Part shown: piece after piece, positions 17,155-30,407 of the stretch
Layout: every line of letters begins with the position of its first letter
Numbering within the stretch: the stretch's first letter is position 1
Position numbers and translations under genes: made by a program
Notes under the pieces: generated by a model
What the model saw: only the letters and a program-made list of their open reading frames with translations
What the model was told of the DNA's origin: nothing
The model's database searches: none
Source: Candidatus Thermoflexus tengchongensis
GTDB taxonomy: Bacteria > Chloroflexota > Anaerolineae > Thermoflexales > Thermoflexaceae
Length of the DNA stretch: 35,752 nucleotides
Reading direction: 5' to 3'
NCBI GenBank assembly: GCA_016842085.1
Contig: JAEVEX010000050.1
Span: 1 to 35,752, forward strand

Positions 17155-17559
17155 ATGCATGAACTGGCGATCACCCAGGGGATCCTCTCCGTGGTTCTGG
17201 AGACGGCCGAGGCCGCAGGGGCGCGACGGGTGCTCGCCATCGATCTCACGGTGGGCGCCCTCACCGGTTACGTGGATGATTCCATCCGTTTCTACTTCGA
17301 TCTGCTGAGCCGGGGGACATCCGCCGAGGGCGCGATCCTGCGGATCCGCCGGGAGCCCGGAGAGGGGCATTGCCAGACATGCGGGGCACGGTTCCCGGTG
17401 GAACCTCCCGTGCTGCCGACATGCCCCTTCTGCGGCAGCCCGCAGATCCGGATCACCGGTGGAACCCGCTGCATGGTCGAACGCATCGAGGTGGAGGATG
17501 GGGACGAGCATTCCGGTTGTGAAGGCGATCCTCCAGGCCAACCAGGCCGTGGCCTCTGA
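17155..17559 (+). CDS. hypA: Hydrogenase nickel incorporation protein HypA
   Basis: HypA delivers nickel to the large subunit of [NiFe] hydrogenase together with HypB. The N-terminal MHE motif with His2 is the nickel site. A zinc ribbon is formed by C73, C76, C90 and C93 (CQTCG and CPFCG). The family normally ends about where residue 114 lies (IEVED); here about 20 extra residues rich in Gly and Pro follow, encoded in the 62 bases that overlap the start of hypB. The ATG follows GGAGGG at 9 bases. It is the first gene of hypABFCD. Confidence 0.93.
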   Translation: MHELAITQGILSVVLETAEAAGARRVLAIDLTVGALTGYVDDSIRFYFDLLSRGTSAEGAILRIRREPGEGHCQTCGARFPVEPPVLPTCPFCGSPQIRITGGTRCMVERIEVEDGDEHSGCEGDPPGQPGRGL

Positions 17560-18172
17560 AAACCGGGCGGCCTTCGACCGCGTCGGCCTCCTGGCTGTGA
17601 ACCTCATGGCCGCCCCGGGGGCTGGCAAAACCAGCCTGATCCTCGCCGCCCTGGAGCATCTGCCCCCGGCCCTCCGGGTCGGCGTCATCGAGGGAGATAT
17701 CGCCTCCACGCTGGATGCGGAACGGATCGCCGCCCGCGGGATCCCGGTGGTGCAGATCAACACGGGTGGCGCCTGCCATCTGGATGCCCCGATGATCCGT
17801 TCCGCCCTTTCCCATCTGCCTCTGGAAAACCTCGATCTGCTGTTCATTGAAAACGTGGGGAACCTGATTTGCCCGGCGGAGTTCGACCTCGGCGCTCACC
17901 TGAACATCGTGATCGCCAGCGTCCCGGAGGGCCACGACAAGCCCTATAAATACCCCGGGATGTTCCAGAAAGCCGATGGGGTCGTGCTGAACAAGGCGGA
18001 CCTCCTGGGGTTCCTGGACTTCGATCTGGAAGCTTTCCGGCATGGCCTGAGGATCCTTCGACCGGACGTGCCGCTCTTCATTGTCTCCTGCCGAACCGGC
18101 CAGGGCATGGAGGCCTGGGTGGAATGGCTGCTGGAGCACCGTCGACAGCAGCGAGAACGCCATGGGCCATGA
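17498..18172 (+). CDS. hypB: Hydrogenase nickel incorporation GTPase HypB
   Basis: This SIMIBI-class GTPase powers nickel insertion with HypA. It has 224 residues: Walker A at residues 41-46 (GAGKTS), the metal-binding C94-H95 in GGACHLD, C126 in NLICPAEF, and the guanine-specificity motif NKAD at 166-169. The N-terminus lacks the CxxGC high-affinity nickel motif and the His-rich stretch found in some relatives, so nickel storage is not expected. The start at 17498 lies inside hypA (62-base overlap), directly after a GAGGTGGAGG tract. Its stop overlaps hypF by 11 bases. Confidence 0.93.
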   Translation: MGTSIPVVKAILQANQAVASENRAAFDRVGLLAVNLMAAPGAGKTSLILAALEHLPPALRVGVIEGDIASTLDAERIAARGIPVVQINTGGACHLDAPMIRSALSHLPLENLDLLFIENVGNLICPAEFDLGAHLNIVIASVPEGHDKPYKYPGMFQKADGVVLNKADLLGFLDFDLEAFRHGLRILRPDVPLFIVSCRTGQGMEAWVEWLLEHRRQQRERHGP

Positions 18173-20549
18173 GATCCGACGGGTTCGCGTGGAGATCCAG
18201 GGCGCCGTGCAGGGGGTGGGATTCCGCCCCTATGTCTACCGGCTGGCCGCCGAACTCGGCCTCACCGGATGGGTCCTGAATGACTCCCGCGGGGTCTTCA
18301 TCGAGGCGGAAGGCCCCGTATCCCGGCTGGAACGCTTCCTGGAACGCCTCCCCCGCGAAACCCCTCCCCGGGCGCGTATCCTCTCCATTCAGGTGGACTG
18401 GCTGGACCCTGTCGGGTATTCCGGTTTTGAGATCCGCCACAGCGAAAGGGAGGGGGAGAAAACCGCCCTGGTTCTCCCCGACATCGCCACATGCGCCCGA
18501 TGCCTGGCGGAAATCCTGGATCCTGGGAACCGTCGATATCGCTATCCCTTCACGAACTGCACGGATTGCGGTCCTCGTTTCACCATCGTGGAGGCCCTCC
18601 CCTACGATCGGCCCAACACCACCATGCGCCGTTTCCGGATGTGCCCGGCATGCCAGGCCGAATACGAAAACCCGATGGATCGACGCTTCCACGCCCAGCC
18701 CAACGCGTGCCCGCAATGCGGCCCAACCCTGGCCTTCTACACCCGCGCATCCGCCCTGGCGGAGGAGGCTGGGGACCATCCGGATTTCCCGCAGCGTATC
18801 GGGGATTACTGGCGAACCGCGATGGGGGAGCGCGCGCTGCAGGAGGCGGCGAGGGCCCTGCGCGCGGGCCAGATCGTGGCGGTGAAAGGATTGGGCGGCT
18901 TCCACCTGATGGTGGACGCCCGGAATGAAGAAGCCATCGCCCGGCTGCGGGCGCGCAAACCCCGCCGGGATAAGCCCTTCGCCCTGATGGCCCGGGATCT
19001 CGACCAGATCCGCACCCTGTGCCACGTCCCCCCGGAAGCGGAAACCCTGCTCATCGGGCCGGAGGCACCCATCGTGCTCCTCCCCCGTCGGGCAGGCGCC
19101 CCGGTTGCATCGAATGTAGCACCCGATAATCCCTATCTGGGGGTGATGCTGCCCTATACGCCGCTTCACCATCTGCTGTTGCGGGAACTGGACTTCCCGG
19201 TGGTGGCCACCAGCGGGAACCTCACCGATGAACCGATCTGCACCGATGAGAACGAGGCCGCCCACCGGCTGGCCCGCGTGGCGGATGCCCTCCTGATCCA
19301 CAACCGGCCGATCGCCCGCCACGCGGATGACAGCGTGATGATCCTCATGGACGGCGAACCCCGCCTGCTGCGACGGGCCCGGGGCTTCGCGCCGCTGCCC
19401 ATCCTGGTGAACCGAAGGCTCCCCACCATCCTGGCCGTGGGGGGCCACCTGAAGAACACCATCGCCCTCAGCGTCGGGCGCCAGGTCTTCCTGAGCCAGC
19501 ACATCGGGGATCTGGATACGGCGGAGGCGCTGGCCGCCTTCGAGCGCGTGATCATGGATTTCCTCCGGCTATACGAGGCGGAGCCGGTGGCCATCGCCCA
19601 CGACCTGCATCCGGATTACGCCTCCACCATCTGGGCCCAGCGGGCGGCGGCCGGGGATCTTCCCCAGCCGCTGAGCGCGCGAACGCCCCTCCCCCTGATC
19701 CCGGTCCAGCATCACCACGCCCACCTGGTCGCGTGCCTGACGGATCATCACGTGGAAGGGCCTGCGCTGGGGGTCACCTGGGACGGCACGGGTTACGGCC
19801 TGGATGGGACGATCTGGGGTGGCGAGTTCCTGCTGGGGGATGCCAGTGGGTTCCAGCGGGTGGCCACCCTTCGGCCGTCTCGCCTGCCGGGAGGGGACGC
19901 GGCCGTCCACGCGCCATCCCGTGTGGCGTTCGCGCTGCTATGGGAGCTGGAGGGCCACACGATCATCGAATGGGAACACCTGGCCCCCATACGGGCCCTG
20001 CGGCCCATCGAGCGGCAGGCGCTGGCTCGCATGGTCGCGCGGGGGGTGAACGCGCCGCTCACCTCCAGCATGGGCCGGCTGTTCGACGCGGTCGCAGCGC
20101 TCCTGGATCTCCGCCAGGAGATCACCTTTGAGGGCCAGGCGGCCATGGCCCTGGAGTTCGCCGCTGATCCGTCGGAGACATACGCTTACCCATTCCCCCT
20201 CTGCGGAAATCCGAGGGCGGAAGGGCCTGCCTGGGTTCTGGATTGGGAGCCTCTCCTGAGGGCGATCCTGGAGGATCTGCGCCGTGGCGTCGCGCGGGAG
20301 AAGATCGCGGCCCGTTTCCACAACGCCCTGGTTCAGGCCATCGTTCGGGTGGCGCGGGAGATCGGGGAAAGCCAGGTTGCCCTCAGCGGCGGTTGCTTCC
20401 AGAACCGCCTGCTGACCGAGCGGGCCGCCCGGTCCCTGCGGGAAGCGGGCTTCACCGTCCTGATCCACCGCCAGATCCCCCCCAACGATGGGGGGATCAG
20501 CCTGGGCCAGATCCGGATCGCCGCCGCCCGTCTCGAGCGCGCTTCCTGA
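18162..20549 (+). CDS. hypF: Carbamoyltransferase HypF
   Basis: HypF moves a carbamoyl group from carbamoyl phosphate, through an adenylate, to the C-terminal cysteine of HypE as the source of the cyanide ligands. The 795-residue protein shows the full domain order: acylphosphatase (GAVQGVGFRP, about 14-23), paired zinc fingers (about 110-187: CARC, CTDCGPRFT, CPAC, CPQCG), a YrdC/Sua5-like domain (about 225-406) and a Kae1-like carbamoyltransferase domain (from about 423, with HHHAHLVACL near 517 and GVTWDGTGYG). It is slightly longer than typical (~750-770) through an insert after the zinc fingers. Translation is coupled to hypB. Confidence 0.95.
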   Translation: MGHEIRRVRVEIQGAVQGVGFRPYVYRLAAELGLTGWVLNDSRGVFIEAEGPVSRLERFLERLPRETPPRARILSIQVDWLDPVGYSGFEIRHSEREGEKTALVLPDIATCARCLAEILDPGNRRYRYPFTNCTDCGPRFTIVEALPYDRPNTTMRRFRMCPACQAEYENPMDRRFHAQPNACPQCGPTLAFYTRASALAEEAGDHPDFPQRIGDYWRTAMGERALQEAARALRAGQIVAVKGLGGFHLMVDARNEEAIARLRARKPRRDKPFALMARDLDQIRTLCHVPPEAETLLIGPEAPIVLLPRRAGAPVASNVAPDNPYLGVMLPYTPLHHLLLRELDFPVVATSGNLTDEPICTDENEAAHRLARVADALLIHNRPIARHADDSVMILMDGEPRLLRRARGFAPLPILVNRRLPTILAVGGHLKNTIALSVGRQVFLSQHIGDLDTAEALAAFERVIMDFLRLYEAEPVAIAHDLHPDYASTIWAQRAAAGDLPQPLSARTPLPLIPVQHHHAHLVACLTDHHVEGPALGVTWDGTGYGLDGTIWGGEFLLGDASGFQRVATLRPSRLPGGDAAVHAPSRVAFALLWELEGHTIIEWEHLAPIRALRPIERQALARMVARGVNAPLTSSMGRLFDAVAALLDLRQEITFEGQAAMALEFAADPSETYAYPFPLCGNPRAEGPAWVLDWEPLLRAILEDLRRGVAREKIAARFHNALVQAIVRVAREIGESQVALSGGCFQNRLLTERAARSLREAGFTVLIHRQIPPNDGGISLGQIRIAAARLERAS

Positions 20550-20650: not shown

Positions 20651-20932
20651 ATGTGCCTCGGCGTTCCGGGGAAAGTGGTGGAAGTGAACGACATGACCGC
20701 CCTGGTGGACTTCTGGGGGGTCCGCAAGCCGGTGATGCTCCACACGGTCGACGAGCCGGTGGCCCCGGGGGATTACGTGCTGGTCCACGTGGGCTTCGCC
20801 ATCCGGCGCATTCCTCCCGAGGAAGTTGAGGAAACCCTGGCTTTCTACGAAGCCCTTCTGCGGGCAGCGGAAGAGGATCTGATGGCCGCGGAGGTGCAGA
20901 GTGAGATCCGCTCCCCGGAGGAGGCCCCATGA
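20651..20932 (+). CDS. hypC: Hydrogenase assembly chaperone HypC
   Basis: This 93-residue HypC/HupF-family chaperone carries the Fe(CN)2CO unit between HypD and the large subunit. The start motif MCLGVPGKV with essential Cys2 is present, as are the OB-fold-like strands and the segment APGDYVLVHVGFAI. The C-terminal helix is acidic and about ten residues longer than in small relatives. AGGAGG lies 8 bases before the ATG. Its stop overlaps the hypD start by 4 bases (ATGA). Confidence 0.95.
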   Translation: MCLGVPGKVVEVNDMTALVDFWGVRKPVMLHTVDEPVAPGDYVLVHVGFAIRRIPPEEVEETLAFYEALLRAAEEDLMAAEVQSEIRSPEEAP

Positions 20933-22092
20933 TCCCGGCGCGAACCCCCAAGCCTTCGGAGCGTCTGGAGTTCCGGGATCCGGAGCGGGTGCAGGCCTTC
21001 CGGCGCGCCCTGGAGCGGCTCTGCGCAGACCTCCAGCGGCCGATCTCCGTGATGCACGTCTGCGGCACCCATGAGCAGAGCATCGCCCGTTTCGGGCTGC
21101 GGAGCCTCCTGCCACCGAACCTCCAGGTCATTATGGGGCCGGGATGCCCGGTATGCGTGACCGACATGCCCGAAGTGGATGAGGCGGTTTATCTGGCCGA
21201 ACAGGGCGTGATCATCGCCACCTTCGGGGATATGTTCCGGGTCCCGGGGACCCTCAAATCGCTGGCGGAGGCCAAAGCGGAGGGCGCGGACGTGCGGGTG
21301 ATCTACAGCCCGTGGGAGGCCCTTCAGATCGCCCGGGAAACCGATCGAGAGGTGGTCTTCTTCGCCACCGGCTTCGAGACCACCGCGGTGGCCACGGCGG
21401 CCGTGATCCTCTCCAGACCGCCGAAAAATTTCTCGGTGCTATCCGCCCACAAGTATATCCCTCCCGTGATGGAAATCGTGGCCGAGATGCCCCGGACCCG
21501 GGTGCAGGGGTTCCTGGCCGCGGGCCACGCGGCGACCATCACCGGGTGGAAGGTCTTCGAGCGCTTCGTGGAACGCCATGGCATCCCGGTGGTGGTGGCG
21601 GGGTTCGAGCCCCTGGATATCCTGGGCGCCCTGGTGCAGCTCGTGGAATTGATCCGCCGGGGCGAGAAACGGGTGGTGAACGCCTATCCCCGCTGCGTGA
21701 CGCCGGAAGGCAACCGCAACGCCCAGCGGTTGCTGTGGGAGGTCTTTCAGACCGAAAGCGGGGTCTGGCGCGGCATCGCCTACGTTCCCAACGGGAACCT
21801 TCGCCTGCGCCCGAAATACCAGTGGGCAGACGCCCGGGCCCGTTTCGAGATCCGGCTTTCGGAATGGCTGCGGGATGCTCCGCCCCGCCTCACCCAGGAA
21901 TGCCTGTGCGGCAACATCATGGCCGGCATCGCCACCCCGTATGACTGCCGGCTCTTCGGCAAAGCGTGCACGCCGGAAACCCCGGTGGGCGCCTGTATGG
22001 TGAGCAGCGAGGGCGCGTGCCGGATCTGGTATGAATACGGGGGACATATCACAGGGCCTGAGGGGATGAAGGAGTTGGGGGGACAGGCTTGA
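20929..22092 (+). CDS. hypD: Hydrogenase maturation Fe-S protein HypD
   Basis: This 387-residue [4Fe-4S] scaffold is where the Fe(CN)2CO centre is assembled with HypC and HypE. Conserved residues include C45 in HVCGTHEQ, C73 and C76 in GPGCPVC, and the C-terminal cluster-binding cysteines in CLCGNIMAG, YDCRLFGKAC and GACMVSSEGAC. The length is normal. It follows hypC by a 4-base overlap. Immediately downstream the base composition changes and the cassette region begins, separating it from hypE by about 2 kb. Confidence 0.96.
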   Translation: MIPARTPKPSERLEFRDPERVQAFRRALERLCADLQRPISVMHVCGTHEQSIARFGLRSLLPPNLQVIMGPGCPVCVTDMPEVDEAVYLAEQGVIIATFGDMFRVPGTLKSLAEAKAEGADVRVIYSPWEALQIARETDREVVFFATGFETTAVATAAVILSRPPKNFSVLSAHKYIPPVMEIVAEMPRTRVQGFLAAGHAATITGWKVFERFVERHGIPVVVAGFEPLDILGALVQLVELIRRGEKRVVNAYPRCVTPEGNRNAQRLLWEVFQTESGVWRGIAYVPNGNLRLRPKYQWADARARFEIRLSEWLRDAPPRLTQECLCGNIMAGIATPYDCRLFGKACTPETPVGACMVSSEGACRIWYEYGGHITGPEGMKELGGQA

Positions 22093-22909: not shown

Positions 22910-23206
22910 CACAATCGTACAACGGGGCTGAGGAACGATTCCACAGGTATCCCCGCTGCCCGGCATGGCTCTCCTGTAGTATCATCCCTTCCAGATCCGC
23001 AAGGGGATGGCCATGGGAACCCGGAAGGGACATGGCGCTCTACTCTCAGGGATCCCGGCGATCTGTATCCTTATGATGGAGCACGGATTTTGATCCCCAT
23101 GGGACCCTGCGGGCCATGGGAAGAGCGGAGAGATCCAGAACATCCGGAAGGTCCCCAGGAGGGAGCGTCCAGCCCTATCATTCCCGAAAAATCCGGAGAG
23201 CGCCCC
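22910..23206. other. Gap between the attC-like site and the crotonase gene
   Basis: About 300 bases hold no gene I can support. An open frame continues upstream from the crotonase (to 23090) but has no family character. Several ATG codons occur without ribosome binding sites. It may be residue of a lost cassette or of the original hypD-to-hypE spacer. Confidence 0.35.
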
Positions 23207-24061
23207 ATGGAACCCGTCATCATCGAACTCTATCACATTCGAATGCAGCGAAAAGAGGCGATCGGGATCATCCAGCTCGACCGGCCGGATCGCTTCAATG
23301 CCCTGGATGTCGCGATGGCTCGGGATCTCCGGAAGGCCGCCCTTCAATTCGCCCGCGACCCGGAGGTCCGCTGTGTGATCCTCACCGGAACCGACCGGGT
23401 TTTCTGCAGCGGGGCGGATCTGAAATATGTTCGAGAGCGGGAGCATCCAGAGGACTTCTCATATTTGCAGCCGGAGGCCCGCGAGATCGAGGGGGGCTAT
23501 GGGCGCAGCTTCAAGGAGATCCTGGAATACCTGCACAGCACGATCTCCGAGATCCGGCGCGCGCCCAAACCGTTCATCGCGGCGGTCAAGGGGGTGGCCG
23601 CCGCCGGGGGCCTGGGCCTGGCCATGGCCTGCGATCTGGTCTTCGCCTCCGATCGGGCCAGCTTCGAGTGGGCTTATTCCAAGACCAGCCTCACCGGGGC
23701 GGAGAGCACCACCTTCATCCTCCCCCGCCTTATCGGCCTGCGGCGGACCATGGAGCTGGTCTTTCTGAATCCGCGCCTCAGCGCCCAGCAGGCCCTGGAG
23801 TGGGGCCTCATCAACGGGATCTTTCCTTTCGAGACCTTCGATCAGGAGGTGGAGGCCATCGCCCACCGTCTGGCGCGCGGGCCCACCCGGGCGTGGGCGA
23901 TCACCAAGGCCCTTATCAACGAGGCGCTGGGGATCGATCGTCTGGATCCCCATATGGCGAAAGAGCTGCGGTGTCTCGTGGAGATCGCCGAGACGCCGGA
24001 TTTCGCAGAAGGCCTGGCCGCTTTCTTTGAAAAGCGGGAACCTCATTTCCGGGGAGCGTAA
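23207..24061 (+). CDS. Enoyl-CoA hydratase/isomerase (crotonase) family protein
   Basis: This 284-residue crotonase-fold protein has the CoA-binding and oxyanion-hole signature: VFCSGADLKYV and, about residue 130, AVKGVAAAGGLGLAMACDL. The later motif TTFILPRLIGLRRTMELVF and the C-terminal helices also fit. At the positions of the two catalytic glutamates of enoyl-CoA hydratase my alignment gives non-acidic residues; an E in TGAESTT lies close by. It may therefore act as an isomerase or another crotonase activity. The ATG at 23207 has GGAGAG 8 bases upstream. It ends 5 bases before hypE, so the two are co-translated, an unusual partner for a maturation gene. Confidence 0.88.
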   Translation: MEPVIIELYHIRMQRKEAIGIIQLDRPDRFNALDVAMARDLRKAALQFARDPEVRCVILTGTDRVFCSGADLKYVREREHPEDFSYLQPEAREIEGGYGRSFKEILEYLHSTISEIRRAPKPFIAAVKGVAAAGGLGLAMACDLVFASDRASFEWAYSKTSLTGAESTTFILPRLIGLRRTMELVFLNPRLSAQQALEWGLINGIFPFETFDQEVEAIAHRLARGPTRAWAITKALINEALGIDRLDPHMAKELRCLVEIAETPDFAEGLAAFFEKREPHFRGA

Positions 24062-24066
24062 AACCC

Positions 24067-25119
24067 ATGGCGACCACAGAGAGCCTGGGGGCCTGTCCCA
24101 TCCCGCCCCTTTCTTATCGCACCGTGCTGCTGGGGCACGGCAGCGGGGGACGGCTGATGCACGAGCTGATCGAGAAAGTGTTCCGCCCCCTCCTCCTGCC
24201 GCCCGAAACCCGGGTGTTGAACGACGCCGCCGTCCTGAACATAAACGGATTGCGCCTCGCCTTCACCACCGACGCCTTCGTGGTGGATCCCATTGTGTTC
24301 CCCGGTGGGGATATCGGCCGGCTGGCGGTGAACGGGACCATCAACGATCTGGCCGTCAGCGGGGCCCGACCGCTCTTCCTGAGCGCAGCTTTTATCCTGG
24401 AGGAAGGATTGCCGATCGATACGCTGTGCCAGATCGTGGACTCCATGCGCCGGGCCGCTGAGGAGGCAGGGGTTCCTATCGTCACCGGGGACACCAAGGT
24501 GGTGAATCGGGGGAAGGCGGACAAGATGTTCATCACCACCACGGGCATCGGGGTGGTGGAATACGAGGGGACGCTGTCGGCCGATCAGGCGCGGCCCGGG
24601 GATCTGGTGCTGCTGAACGGGCCGATCGCGGCCCACGGCATCGCGGTGATGCTGGCCCGCGAGCAGATCGAATTTGAGCAACCCGTTCGCTCCGATACCG
24701 CCCCGCTCCACACACTGGTAGCCGCCATGCTCCGGGCCAGCCCCCGCATCCGCTGCATGCGCGATGCGACCCGGGGCGGCCTGGCCAGCGCCTTGAACGA
24801 AATCGCGATGAGCTCCCGGGTGGGCATCCATCTTTATGAGGATCGCATCCCGATCCAGGATGAGGTAAAAGGCGCCTGCGAGATCCTGGGCCTGGATCCC
24901 CTCCACGTGGCCAACGAGGGGAAGCTCATCGCCATCGTCGCCCGGGAGGATGGGGAACGGGTGCTGGAGGCCATGCGCGCCCACCCCCTGGGCCAGGAGG
25001 CGGCCATCATCGGAGAGGTAGTCGAGGATCCCCGACACCTCGTCCTCCTCCGCACCCGGGTCGGCGGCTTCCGGGTGGTCAGTATGCTGGCCGGCGAACA
25101 GCTCCCCCGGATCTGCTGA
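24067..25119 (+). CDS. hypE: Hydrogenase maturation protein HypE
   Basis: HypE dehydrates the carbamoyl group placed by HypF on its C-terminal cysteine to make the thiocyanate from which HypD takes cyanide. The 350-residue protein ends in PRIC with that Cys as the very last residue. It has the PurM/AIR-synthase-like motifs GHGSGGRLM, VLNDAAVLN, NGTINDLAVSGARPLFLS, TGDTKVVNRG and RDATRGGLASALNE. It starts 5 bases after the crotonase stop, with GGGGAG inside the end of that gene as ribosome binding site. It is separated from hypABFCD by the cassette region. Confidence 0.96.
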   Translation: MATTESLGACPIPPLSYRTVLLGHGSGGRLMHELIEKVFRPLLLPPETRVLNDAAVLNINGLRLAFTTDAFVVDPIVFPGGDIGRLAVNGTINDLAVSGARPLFLSAAFILEEGLPIDTLCQIVDSMRRAAEEAGVPIVTGDTKVVNRGKADKMFITTTGIGVVEYEGTLSADQARPGDLVLLNGPIAAHGIAVMLAREQIEFEQPVRSDTAPLHTLVAAMLRASPRIRCMRDATRGGLASALNEIAMSSRVGIHLYEDRIPIQDEVKGACEILGLDPLHVANEGKLIAIVAREDGERVLEAMRAHPLGQEAAIIGEVVEDPRHLVLLRTRVGGFRVVSMLAGEQLPRIC

Positions 25120-25271: not shown

Positions 25272-26423
25272 ATGGCCGATCCCGAGGTTCGGATCCCCGC
25301 CCCCGGCTCCCTCTGGCGAATGGAGAAGGCGCAGCTGCAGACCCTGCTGGAGGCCCTCGCGCAGCAGGGCTACACGATCATCGGCCCGCGGATCCAGGAG
25401 GGGGCCATTGTCTACGATGAAATCCGTCAGATCTCGGATCTCCCCATCGGATGGACGGACGAACAGGATGGGGGCTACTACCGTCTGAAACGCCGGGAGG
25501 ATGAGGCCTTCTTCGGGTATGCGGTGGGCCCGCATTCCTGGAAGCGATTCCTCCATCCCCCCGTGTTCTCCCTGGGCCAGGCCCGCCGCAACGGCCAGGG
25601 CTTCGAATGGATCCCGCCCGCGGATCCTCCGCCGCGCTATGCGTTTCTGGGCGTTCGGGCCTGCGAGCTCCACGCCATCGCCATCCTGGATCGGGTGTTC
25701 ATGGGTGGCCCGTATGTGGACCCGGTTTATCGGGCCCGCCGCGAGGCGCTCTTCCTGATCGCCGTCCAGTGCACCACCGCCGGCGGAACCTGCTTCTGCG
25801 CCTCTATGGGCACCGGCCCCAAAGCCCCGCCCGGCGCCGATCTGATCCTCACGGAGCTTCCAGATGCCTTTGTGGTCGAGATCGGGACCGAACGCGGAGC
25901 GGCTCTTATGGCGGGGGTTCCCTGCACGCCCGCCACGGAAGCCGATCGCGCGGCGGTCGAAGCCCGTCTGGAAGAGACGGCCCGCTCTATGGGTCGACAG
26001 CTGGACACCGCCGATCTCCCCGCCCTGCTCTACCGCAATCTGGAGCATCCCCGCTGGGAGGAGGTCGCCCAGCGCTGCCTGACCTGCGGAAACTGCACCA
26101 TGGTCTGCCCCACCTGTTTCTGCTTCACCATCGAGGATCTCAGCGATCTGGCCGGAACCCGGGCGGAGCGGGTGCGCCGCTGGGATTCCTGCTTCACCAC
26201 CGCCTTCACCTACACCGCCGGGCACCCGATCCGCCAGAGCGCGAAGGCCCGCTATCGCCAGTGGCTGACCCACAAGCTGGCCTCCTGGTGGGATCAATTC
26301 GGAACCTCCGGCTGCGTGGGTTGCGGGCGCTGCATTACGTGGTGCCCGGTGGGCATTGACCTGACGGAGGAAGTCCGGGCGATCCGGGAAACGGACGGAG
26401 CCATGGCCAGCGAGAGGAGGTGA
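25272..26423 (+). CDS. hydB: Group 3b [NiFe] hydrogenase beta subunit (4Fe-4S protein, HydB-like)
   Basis: This electron-transfer subunit links the hydrogenase module to the flavin subunit, as in the sulfhydrogenase HydBGDA. It has 383 residues. The N-terminal part includes [18 protein letters not shown] and [12 protein letters not shown], typical of the HydB/Asr beta family. Two ferredoxin-type clusters follow: [16 protein letters not shown] (about 269-284) and [16 protein letters not shown] (about 348-363). GGAGG lies 8 bases before the ATG. It is the first gene of the structural operon and is followed after 4 bases by the cyclic-nucleotide-binding gene. Confidence 0.92.
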
Positions 26424-26427
26424 GCCG

Positions 26428-26907
26428 ATGTCGAAAGCCGAGATCCTAAAAGCGCTTCGCCAGCATCCCTTCACCCACGATATGGAGGAGGCCTGGAAGG
26501 AAAGCCTGGCGGAGATCGCCCAGCTGCAGACCTACGCCCCGGATACGCTGCTCCTGCGGGAGGGCCGGGCGGCGGACGCCTTCTTCCTGATTGTAGATGG
26601 CCTGGTGGCCATCGAGATGTTCATCCCGGGGCAGGGCGCCATCCGCCTGCAGACCGTGAGCGCCGGAGAGATCGTGGGCTGGTCATGGGCCCTTCCCCCT
26701 TACCGATGGGAATTCGATGCCCGGGCCCTGGTGGAGACCACCGCCGTGGTCCTGGATGCCGCTCCGCTGCGGGCCCGGATGAGTCAGGACTGCGCCCTCG
26801 CCGCCTGGATCCTGAGCCGGCTGCTCGCGGTGGTCGCCGGGCGGCTCAAGGCCGCCCGCCTGCAACTCCTGGACCTCTACGCGCCGCCGGAGAGGAGGCC
26901 TGCATGA
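26428..26907 (+). CDS. Cyclic nucleotide-binding domain protein lacking a DNA-binding domain
   Basis: This 159-residue protein is little more than one cNMP-binding (CRP-like) domain: a helical start, then the beta roll with [20 protein letters not shown] and [20 protein letters not shown], and a long C-terminal dimer helix ([17 protein letters not shown]). CRP and FNR proteins go on with a helix-turn-helix for ~70 residues; here the protein ends, and its stop overlaps the gamma-subunit start by 4 bases. It is therefore probably not a transcription factor but a sensor or partner of the hydrogenase, possibly modulating its activity (inference). The phosphate-binding segment differs from the canonical RxA motif, so the ligand may not be cAMP. 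Confidence 0.85.
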
Positions 26908-27848: not shown

Positions 27849-28652
27849 ATGGCACGACGTCGCAAACCCAAGCTGGCGGTCTGGAAGTTTGCCTCATGCG
27901 ATGGCTGTCAGCTCACCCTTCTGGATTGTGAGGAGGAGCTGCTGACCCTGGCCGGCGAGGTGGAGATCGCCTACTTCCTGGAGGCCTCGCGGGCAGTGGT
28001 GCGGGGGCCCTACGATCTCTCCCTGGTGGAGGGCAGCATCTCCACCCCGGAACAGGTGGATCAGATCCGGGAGATCCGACGGCAGAGCCGCTTCCTGGTC
28101 ACCATCGGGGCCTGCGCCACGGCCGGCGGGATCCAGGCCCTTCGGAACTTCGCGGATGTGCGCGGTTTCCTGGATCTGGTCTACGCCCGCCCGGAATATA
28201 TCAAGACGCTGGAGAAATCCCTGCCCGCCTCGGCCTATGTGCCGGTCGATTTCGAGCTTCGGGGCTGCCCCATCGGGAAGGGGCCCCTGCTGGAGCTGAT
28301 CAGCGCCTTCCTGAACGGTCGACGGCCCAACATCCCCAACCATAGCGTGTGCATCGAGTGCAAACGCCGCGGGATCGTATGTGTGATGGTCGCTCAGGGG
28401 ATCCCGTGTCTGGGGCCGGTCACCCAGGCGGGATGCGGCGCGCTGTGTCCCGCTTACCGGCGGGGCTGCTACGGTTGCTTCGGCCCGATGGAAACGCCCA
28501 ACCCGGCCAGCCTGGGGGACTGGTTGCTGGCCCATGGGATGACCTCCCCGGATCTGGTGCGGCTGTTCCGGACCTTCAACGCGTATGCCCCTGCTTTTCG
28601 GGAGGCAGGAGACCGCTATGCCGAAGCCGCGAACCCTGACCGTTCGAGTTGA
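27849..28652 (+). CDS. hydD: Group 3b [NiFe] hydrogenase small subunit (delta, HydD-like)
   Basis: This 267-residue small subunit carries the Fe-S chain from the active site to the beta subunit. The proximal cluster starts with C17 and C20 in [13 protein letters not shown], with further ligands in IGACATAGG and [10 protein letters not shown]. The C-terminal part adds cysteines for extra clusters ([32 protein letters not shown]). There is no twin-arginine signal, so the enzyme is cytoplasmic. GGAGG precedes the ATG; 90 bases separate it from hydG. Its end overlaps the large subunit by 35 bases. Confidence 0.94.
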
Positions 28653-29916
28653 GGCCCTGGCCCGGGTGGAAGGCGAGGGCGCCCTGCACGTCCGGGTGCG
28701 GAACGGGCAGGTGCACGAGCTCCGCCTGGAGATCTATGAGCCGCCCCGCTTTTTCGAGGCCTTTCTGCGGGGGCGGCGTTTCGAGGAAGCGCCGGATTTC
28801 ACCGCTCGCATCTGTGGCATCTGCCCGGTGGCCTATCAGATGAGCGCATGCAATGCCATCGAAAGCCTGTTCGGGCTTTCGGTGAAAGGCCCCCTCCGGG
28901 ATCTTCGCCTCTTGCTCTACTACGGCGAATGGATCGAAAGCCATGCGCTTCATATGTTCCTCCTGCACTTGCCGGATTTCCTCGGCTACGAGAGCGCGCT
29001 CCATATGGCCCGGGATCATCCAGAGTGGGTGCAAAAGGGACTGCAGATCAAAAAGGCCGGGAACGATCTGATGGCCCGGATTGGGGGGCGGGAGATCCAT
29101 CCGATCAACGTGCGGGTGGGCGGATTCTACTCCGTGCCCGCTCGTCGGGCGCTCCTGGAGCATCGGGACGGGCTGGCCCGCGCCCGCGATTTCATGATCG
29201 AGGCCCTGCGCTGGATGGCCGGGCTGGAGTTCCCGGATTTCGAGGAGGATTATGAATTCGTGGCCCTCCATCATCCGGAGGAATATGCCATCCTCGAGGG
29301 CCAGATTCATTCCAGCAAAGGCCTTCTCATCCCGGTCTCCGGATTCGAGGAGGTCTTCGAGGAACTCCAGGTGCCTTACAGCAACGCCCTGCATTCCATC
29401 ATCCGGGGGCGAGGCAGCTATATGGTCGGCCCGCTGGCCCGCTTCAACCTGAATTTCCACCAGCTCTCCCCGCTGGCCTGGGAGGTGGCCACCGCCATCG
29501 GTCTGACCCCCCCGGTGCGCAACCCCTTCCGCAGCCTCCTCGTCCGCGGGATCGAGGTGGTTCACGCCTGCGAGGAAGCCCTGCGCCTCATCGATCGCTA
29601 CGAGCCGCCAGACCATCCCTTCGAGCCCTTCGAGATCCGGGCAGGGATGGGGTTCGGAGCCAGCGAGGCCCCCCGGGGGATCCTGTATCATCGTTATCAG
29701 ATCAATACCGAAGGCCTGATCGAAGACGCGAAGATCGTTCCGCCCACCGCGCAGAACCAGCGGCGCATCGAGGACGATCTGCGGAAGCTGGTGCCGCACC
29801 TGCTGGCTCTGCCCAAAGATCAGATCACCTGGCGCTGTGAGCAGGCCATCCGGAACTACGATCCCTGCATCTCCTGCGCCACGCACTTCCTGCGCCTGGA
29901 GATCGAGAAGGAATGA
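28618..29916 (+). CDS. hydA: Group 3b [NiFe] hydrogenase large subunit (alpha, HydA-like)
   Basis: This is the catalytic subunit with the NiFe centre, 432 residues. The L1 motif RICGIC supplies C66 and C69, and the L2 motif DPCISCATH supplies C417 and C420. Nine residues (FLRLEIEKE) follow H423 and would be removed by the maturation protease encoded next. The RVEGEG start motif is also present. AGGAG lies 7 bases before the ATG at 28618. L1 and L2 as RICGIC and DPCxxCxTH, together with the HydB/G/D neighbours, support a bidirectional NAD(P)-linked group 3b enzyme. Confidence 0.95.
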
Positions 29917-30407
29917 GGCAGGCGCCGCGCTGGGTCCTTATCGGCCTGGGTCACCCGATGCGGCGGGACGACGGGGTGGGGTTGTGGGTGGCCGCCCAGC
30001 TCCAGGCCCGGAGCGGGCCCGGCGGCGCAGTCATTCCCCTGGGGGTTCCTGATCCGGTGGCGCTGGCCCGGGCGTGGGCAGGGGCGGAGATCGCCTGGAT
30101 CGTCGATGCGGTAGCCGCCAGCGCCCCTCCGGGAACGCTTCTCCGGATTCGTGGGGATCGCCTTTTGGAGGACCCTCGCCCCCGGCGCTACTCCATCCAT
30201 GGGCTCTCTCTGGGAGAGGCCCTCGCCCTCGCCCGAGCCCTGGGGCCGTTCCCCCCATGCCTGGTTCTTTACGGGATCGTCGGCGAGGATTTTGGATTTG
30301 GGGAGAGGCTCTCCCCGGCGGTGGAAGCCAGCGCCCGCCGCCTGGTCCGCCGGCTGGGGTGCATGATCGCCTGGCTGGAAAAACACAACGAATTCCATCC
30401 TGGATGA
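29913..30407 (+). CDS. Hydrogenase maturation protease
   Basis: This 164-residue endopeptidase of the HycI/HybD family trims the C-terminus of the large subunit after nickel insertion. The N-terminal [19 protein letters not shown] corresponds to the family's GxGNxxxxDDGxG motif, with His replacing the usual Asn. IVDAV holds the second metal ligand Asp and the [11 protein letters not shown] segment the His. It starts by an ATGA overlap with the large-subunit stop, so the substrate is almost certainly that subunit. It closes the hydrogenase operon; a methyltransferase gene begins 15 bases later. Confidence 0.92.

Follow-up and report, generated by a model that had tools for sequence, protein, structure and literature searches.

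The soluble [NiFe] hydrogenase of Cupriavidus necator, a group-3d enzyme of composition HoxFUYHI2, contains a dimer of HoxI, a protein with a cyclic-nucleotide-binding-type domain (CNBD) that has been called regulatory (PMC12809855, PMC12281615) and that is thought not to carry electrons, having no Fe-S cluster (PMC7363133, PMC12281615, PMC12809855). HoxFUYH is active without HoxI (PMC12281615), and the title of Burgdorf 2005, as cited in PMC3189943, refers to activation by NADPH. In group 3b, P. furiosus sulfhydrogenase 1 (SHI, PDB 9nez) and M. smegmatis Hyd3 have beta, gamma, delta and alpha subunits homologous to those considered here, and both have been described as four-subunit enzymes with no CNBD (PMC13332983; M. 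smegmatis operon, PMC2799521). A CNBD gene is listed in the 3b clusters of Methylocystis 'acidophilus' 29, where it is named HoxI, and of Rhodococcus equi 103S (PMC12319191, PMC13332983). These listings have the same gene content as the locus described below, and where they list the gene the two papers neither define a family nor describe its distribution, motif or mechanism. No further account of a CNBD gene in 3b clusters was found in the open-access literature, subscription papers lying largely outside that search.

The hydrogenase locus

The window, by which we mean the whole 35,752-nucleotide stretch of Candidatus Thermoflexus tengchongensis DNA that was analysed, carries the following features.

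17459..18172, plus strand: HypB-like nickel-insertion GTPase (PF02492)
18081..20549, plus strand: HypF maturation protein (PF07503/PF22521/PF17788)
20929..22092, plus strand: HypD maturation protein (PF01924, E=3.6e-135)
24067..25119, plus strand: HypE maturation protein, directly upstream of beta (AIRS domains PF00586/PF02769)
25272..26423, plus strand: beta subunit, HydB-like, 4Fe-4S (PF17179, Fer4_22; P. furiosus sulfhydrogenase 1 beta, 9nez_B, E=2.6e-44)
26428..26907, plus strand: HTH-less cNMP-binding-type (CNBD) protein of 159 aa, proposed accessory subunit (PF00027, relatives, AlphaFold2)
26665..26730, plus strand: family signature in the phosphate-binding cassette, residues 80-101 (conservation in the best 80 relatives)
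26791..26880, plus strand: long, conserved C-terminal helix, residues 122-151, likely a dimer or docking helix
26904..27758, plus strand: gamma subunit, FAD/NAD(P)-binding reductase, HydG/ShyC-like, FNR-like (profile matches)
27849..28652, plus strand: delta (small) [NiFe] hydrogenase subunit (PF01058; NF040836/NF040831, 159 bits)
28585..29916, plus strand: alpha (large) catalytic subunit, group 3b-like (NF040828, 250 bits)
29913..30407, plus strand: hydrogenase maturation protease (TIGR00072, PF01750)

The large subunit scores 250/237 bits with the ShyA/HydA profiles against 123 bits with VhuA, it ranks group 3b above a group-3d HoxH-type structure, and it matches the alpha subunit of P. furiosus SHI (9nez) at E=1e-64. 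Together with a Fer4_22 beta and an FNR-like gamma subunit, this 3b-nearest large subunit identifies the operon, as judged from sequence, as that of a group-3b (sulfhydrogenase-like) [NiFe] hydrogenase. The CNBD gene is packed tightly into it: beta ends at 26423, four nucleotides before the CNBD ATG at 26428, and at its other end the gamma ATG, which starts at 26904, shares bases with the CNBD stop codon (26905-26907) in an ATGA, exactly the spacing, frame and coordinates given in the first-pass annotation.

Two further details of the locus were noted. The alpha frame as listed overlaps delta by 68 nt (28585-28652), and the conserved start is probably an internal ATG near 28618. An enoyl-CoA hydratase/crotonase gene at 23090-24061 lies between hypD and hypE and is kept in four genus-level loci (L035-L038). 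The maturase HypX has a crotonase-like domain, and a link of this gene to maturation is possible; no formyltransferase half was found among the proteins searched.

Fold and phosphate-binding cassette of the CNBD protein

The sole Pfam domain of the CNBD protein is PF00027 (residues 34-120, E=1.2e-9), at about 38.5-39.6 bits and thus above the curated cut-off of 27.5 bits; no Pfam HTH family matched, and no NCBIfam model reached its own cut-off. It is the weakest of the six PF00027 proteins of the genome (about 39.6 bits against 65-86), and in a direct protein search of the genome at E 0.001 no other protein matched it. The AlphaFold2 model, of high confidence (pLDDT 93.7, pTM 0.86), is a full CNBD and contains no second domain; its C-terminal helix spans residues 122-150 (29 residues) and stops where the HTH would begin in CRP. 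The beta-roll fold is recovered with a Z score of 20.5 (rmsd 1.5 over 132 residues) against the best structural match, PDB 3mdp, an HTH-less CNBD protein of Geobacter metallireducens (Gmet_1532) whose title says putative cyclic nucleotide-binding protein and nothing more. The 3mdp cassette, GVSSLIKPYHYTSSARA, resembles that of the family, and the full W-S-W/PPYRW motif described below is absent from it. Against CRPs the model scores Z about 16-17.5, so that the protein resembles CRP/FNR transcription factors in its CNBD fold and C-helix; unlike them, it lacks the HTH and the cAMP-contact residues and is fixed in an operon. The earlier description of a lone CRP-like domain without HTH, encoded between the 4Fe-4S and flavin subunits, therefore stands. 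A hidden or frameshifted HTH was considered and can be ruled out, since the DNA that follows the CNBD gene is the gamma gene and all relatives measured are too short to contain one (152-169 aa in the best 80).

Conservation among these 80, the best of at least 523 relatives, peaks in the cassette and in the C-terminal helix. The cassette motif is GWSWxxPPYRWxFDA. G58, G84, S86, W87, P91 and W94 are invariant in 80/80, and W85, Y92, F96, D97, A98, A100 and R115 are conserved in at least 90%, as are R139, L140, R144, L147, D149 and Y151 in the helix. In CRP, E72 and R82 are the residues that hold cAMP. In a sequence-based alignment with E. coli CRP these two positions correspond to W85 and W94, and position 85 is W in 72 of the 80 relatives, A in 8 and Glu in none. 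The cassette Glu and Arg of cAMP- or cGMP-responsive CNBDs are thus missing from the protein and its relatives alike, and because the cAMP-holding positions are now tryptophans, gating by a cyclic nucleotide, which had been raised when the gene was first annotated and for which the cassette had been singled out for inspection, is unlikely. The family forms a clade in which the phosphate cassette has been remade.

Distribution and gene order

To find relatives, some 85,000 genomes of prokaryote species were scanned once with alignment A1 and the peptide pattern [WA]SWx[FLV][PA]P[YSF][RQE]W. At least 590 stretches matched, and 523 were confirmed as CNBD relatives among the matches listed. Around the 80 best of the at least 523 relatives, which belong to at least 16 named phyla, the usual order is beta-CNBD-gamma-delta-alpha, and both beta and gamma lie within 3.5 kb of the CNBD gene in 76 of them, a sample that by its selection is biased toward the same arrangement. 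The borders of the CNBD gene overlap its neighbours in 46/72 and 51/73 cases on the two sides, with a median of -4 nt on each, some start codons having been set by rule. A protein search of 301 Chloroflexota genomes gave a CNBD match in 58; among the 30 best loci, 29 adjoin a beta homologue and one adjoins HoxH. The usual gene order also occurs on betaproteobacterial and rhodococcal plasmids. A gene private to this genome, the case that the first-pass annotation had set against its own proposal, is ruled out by the at least 523 relatives; the survey of hydrogenase operons that it had called for finds the gene kept next to those of hydrogenases in at least 16 phyla.

Several loci depart from the usual arrangement. 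At L115-L120 and L126 the operon begins with CNBD and beta, and about 0.9 kb then separates beta from delta-alpha. No homologue of gamma was found at these loci, and the interval may encode another reductase. Two paralogous CNBD genes stand in a row at L052, two CNBD genes or two CNBDs in one frame occur at a single locus in L073, and one open frame, G495:C6:29091-29915, encodes two CNBDs. Such pairs would fit a heterodimer or a fused dimer, hinting that the protein is dimeric. A fusion of beta with CNBD, of the Rosetta-stone kind, was looked for as well; the sole candidate, L057, has its beta split over several frames and looks like a frameshifted record.

Inheritance with the enzyme

For Chloroflexota we collected 45 alpha genes of 3b type, each scoring above 320 bits. 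A CNBD gene lies within 6 kb of 34 of them; for six others it is found elsewhere in the genome, in several cases on another contig, and five are without it. In Chloroflexota G030, G039, G186 and others (family f18) the match to the large subunit is interrupted by a single in-frame stop, for which a separately encoded C-terminus would be one possible cause. In Actinomycetota, where the 15 best candidates per genome were scored, a CNBD gene stands beside alpha in 14 of the 26 genomes with an alpha of at least 448 bits. Nine Actinomycetota loci without a CNBD match were read directly and contain no CNBD gene, and no fused CNBD was found in the Actinomycetota operons that lack the gene. On the alpha tree, which over-samples carriers in that the CNBD had led to most of its rows, presence of the gene is clustered (5 changes against a shuffled mean of 13). 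Three CNBD-less Actinomycetota loci branch within groups of carriers, a position suggestive of loss, and the gene has probably been lost in some lineages.

Where it is present, the gene evolves with the enzyme. In a comparison of 60 loci, the correlation of CNBD distances with those of alpha is r=0.74 (permutation maximum 0.16), and with those of delta, gamma and beta 0.68, 0.64 and 0.55 (all permutation maxima below 0.19); the alpha-CNBD value is at the level of the subunits themselves, for which alpha-beta is 0.72 and alpha-gamma 0.74. Within the genus, CNBD has a dN/dS of 0.08-0.13, comparable to the values of its neighbours, a ratio that indicates purifying selection. By these measures it behaves like a component of the hydrogenase operon and not like a passenger.

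Some members of the family stand apart from hydrogenases. The orphan members L096, L107 and L113 of Micromonospora carry the SW..PPY motif, and no match to a 3b hydrogenase was found in their genomes. The neighbours of L096 include a pyruvate formate-lyase and an adjoining radical-SAM protein, an FMN reductase and a luciferase-like monooxygenase. This suggests a hydrogenase-independent role for the orphans.

Relation to HoxI

The protein resembles C. necator HoxI in anatomy: both are HTH-less CNBD proteins of similar length encoded in the operon of a bidirectional [NiFe] hydrogenase. HoxI of pHG1 (L031) follows a hoxW-type protease gene, and in group-3d hox operons of Anaerolineae a member of the CNBD family occupies the same hoxI slot after hoxW. 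The order at L124 and L129 is hoxF-U-Y-H-W-CNBD-hypA-B-F-D-E, and at L128 the gene occurs with hoxU-Y-H-W in the stretch examined. Since the 3d members L128 and L129 nest in the tree with 3b members of the same class (support 99/96), the family appears to have moved between hydrogenase classes, with an apparent transfer of the CNBD module into some 3d operons. In sequence, HoxI of C. necator differs from the family: it is 21% identical to the CNBD protein over 78 residues (pair E=0.002), it scores 44.7 bits with the family profile where other CNBD proteins score 36-61, it retains the cassette GE, and it belongs to a 3d and not a 3b enzyme. In the tree it falls outside the family clade (100/100) on a long branch. 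An AU test, however, does not reject kinship (p=0.09), and no close HoxI relatives that could break this branch were found on plasmids.

Discussion

The gene comparisons presented here show a widespread accessory gene of group-3b hydrogenases with a signature of its own, a regulatory CNBD subunit being already known in group 3d as HoxI. With that precedent in C. necator (PMC12809855, PMC12281615), the remark made at first annotation that a ligand-gated hydrogenase would be unusual was too strong. The same annotation tied the gene to the hydrogenase rather than to transcription, and here it is borne out by the length of the relatives, too short for an HTH in 80/80, by the overlapping-gene position in at least 16 phyla and by co-evolution with the large subunit.

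On balance we lean towards a small, dimeric CNBD accessory subunit of the group-3b enzyme that would tune its activity in response to a small ligand or to redox state; complex membership, dimer, ligand and regulation are what we infer from the gene. Translational coupling would have the CNBD protein made in step with beta and gamma. Probably as a dimer, it would then bind the assembled hydrogenase and adjust its activity or its direction, H2 evolution versus NADP+ reduction. The trigger would be a small ligand or redox state, cAMP and cGMP being unlikely. The leading candidate for the ligand is NADP(H), by analogy with HoxI of C. necator, because group-3b enzymes are NAD(P)H-linked and because of the NADPH activation named in the title of Burgdorf 2005. 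Contact with delta/alpha is a reasonable guess, since the small and large subunits are what the CNBD-carrying 3b and 3d enzymes share most clearly. A more far-reaching version, which we put forward tentatively, is that of a large five-subunit class of bacterial 3b enzymes in at least 16 phyla. In these, the tryptophan-rich pocket of a repurposed CNBD would set the direction of the enzyme by sensing a ligand that is not cyclic, be it NADP(H) or a different nucleotide, and the module would be portable between 3b and 3d.

Several observations count against reading the protein as such a subunit: HoxFUYH is active without HoxI, known 3b enzymes work without a CNBD, those from P. furiosus and M. smegmatis having four subunits by published account, nine Actinomycetota loci have no CNBD gene, and no 3b hydrogenase match was found in the genomes of the Micromonospora orphans. 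The main rival, a purely structural role, keeps the protein in the complex and supposes that ligand binding was lost and that the CNBD stabilises, assembles or oligomerises the hydrogenase, its cassette serving as a protein-protein interface. Replacement of the E72 and R82 equivalents would agree with this, as would the translational coupling beside beta and gamma and the concentration of conservation in cassette and helix, where an interface would be expected. However, the motif persists in orphans that lack the hydrogenase, and the family occurs with two classes of hydrogenase whose diaphorase modules differ, which speaks for something beyond a single fixed interface; we consider a purely structural role rather unlikely.

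Another reading is a signalling protein, free in the cytosol, that shares its expression with the hydrogenase without being part of it, for example a CRP/FNR heterodimer partner or a relay. Members apart from hydrogenase genes would suit it, as would the C-helix, through which CRP-type proteins dimerise. Such a protein is hard to reconcile with the beta-CNBD-gamma order and overlapping frames in at least 16 phyla, or with CNBD distances that track alpha as closely as those of the other subunits do, and we think it improbable. A classical cAMP or cGMP sensor gating the hydrogenase would suit the PF00027 fold, and cAMP-bound CRPs are among the close structural matches, yet tryptophans stand where E72 and R82 should be, with no Glu at position 85 in any of the 80 relatives and W94 in all, and it is very improbable indeed.

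Whichever role applies, group-3b hydrogenases are widespread and reversible, and it is not settled how the cell chooses between H2 production and H2 consumption. A conserved subunit that had been overlooked and that has the fold of a sensor, such as the accessory subunit that we favour, would be a natural control point, and as the model 3b enzymes in the literature cited here are without a CNBD, their biochemistry would not have revealed it. Close relatives differ in whether they carry the CNBD gene, which makes the question directly testable.
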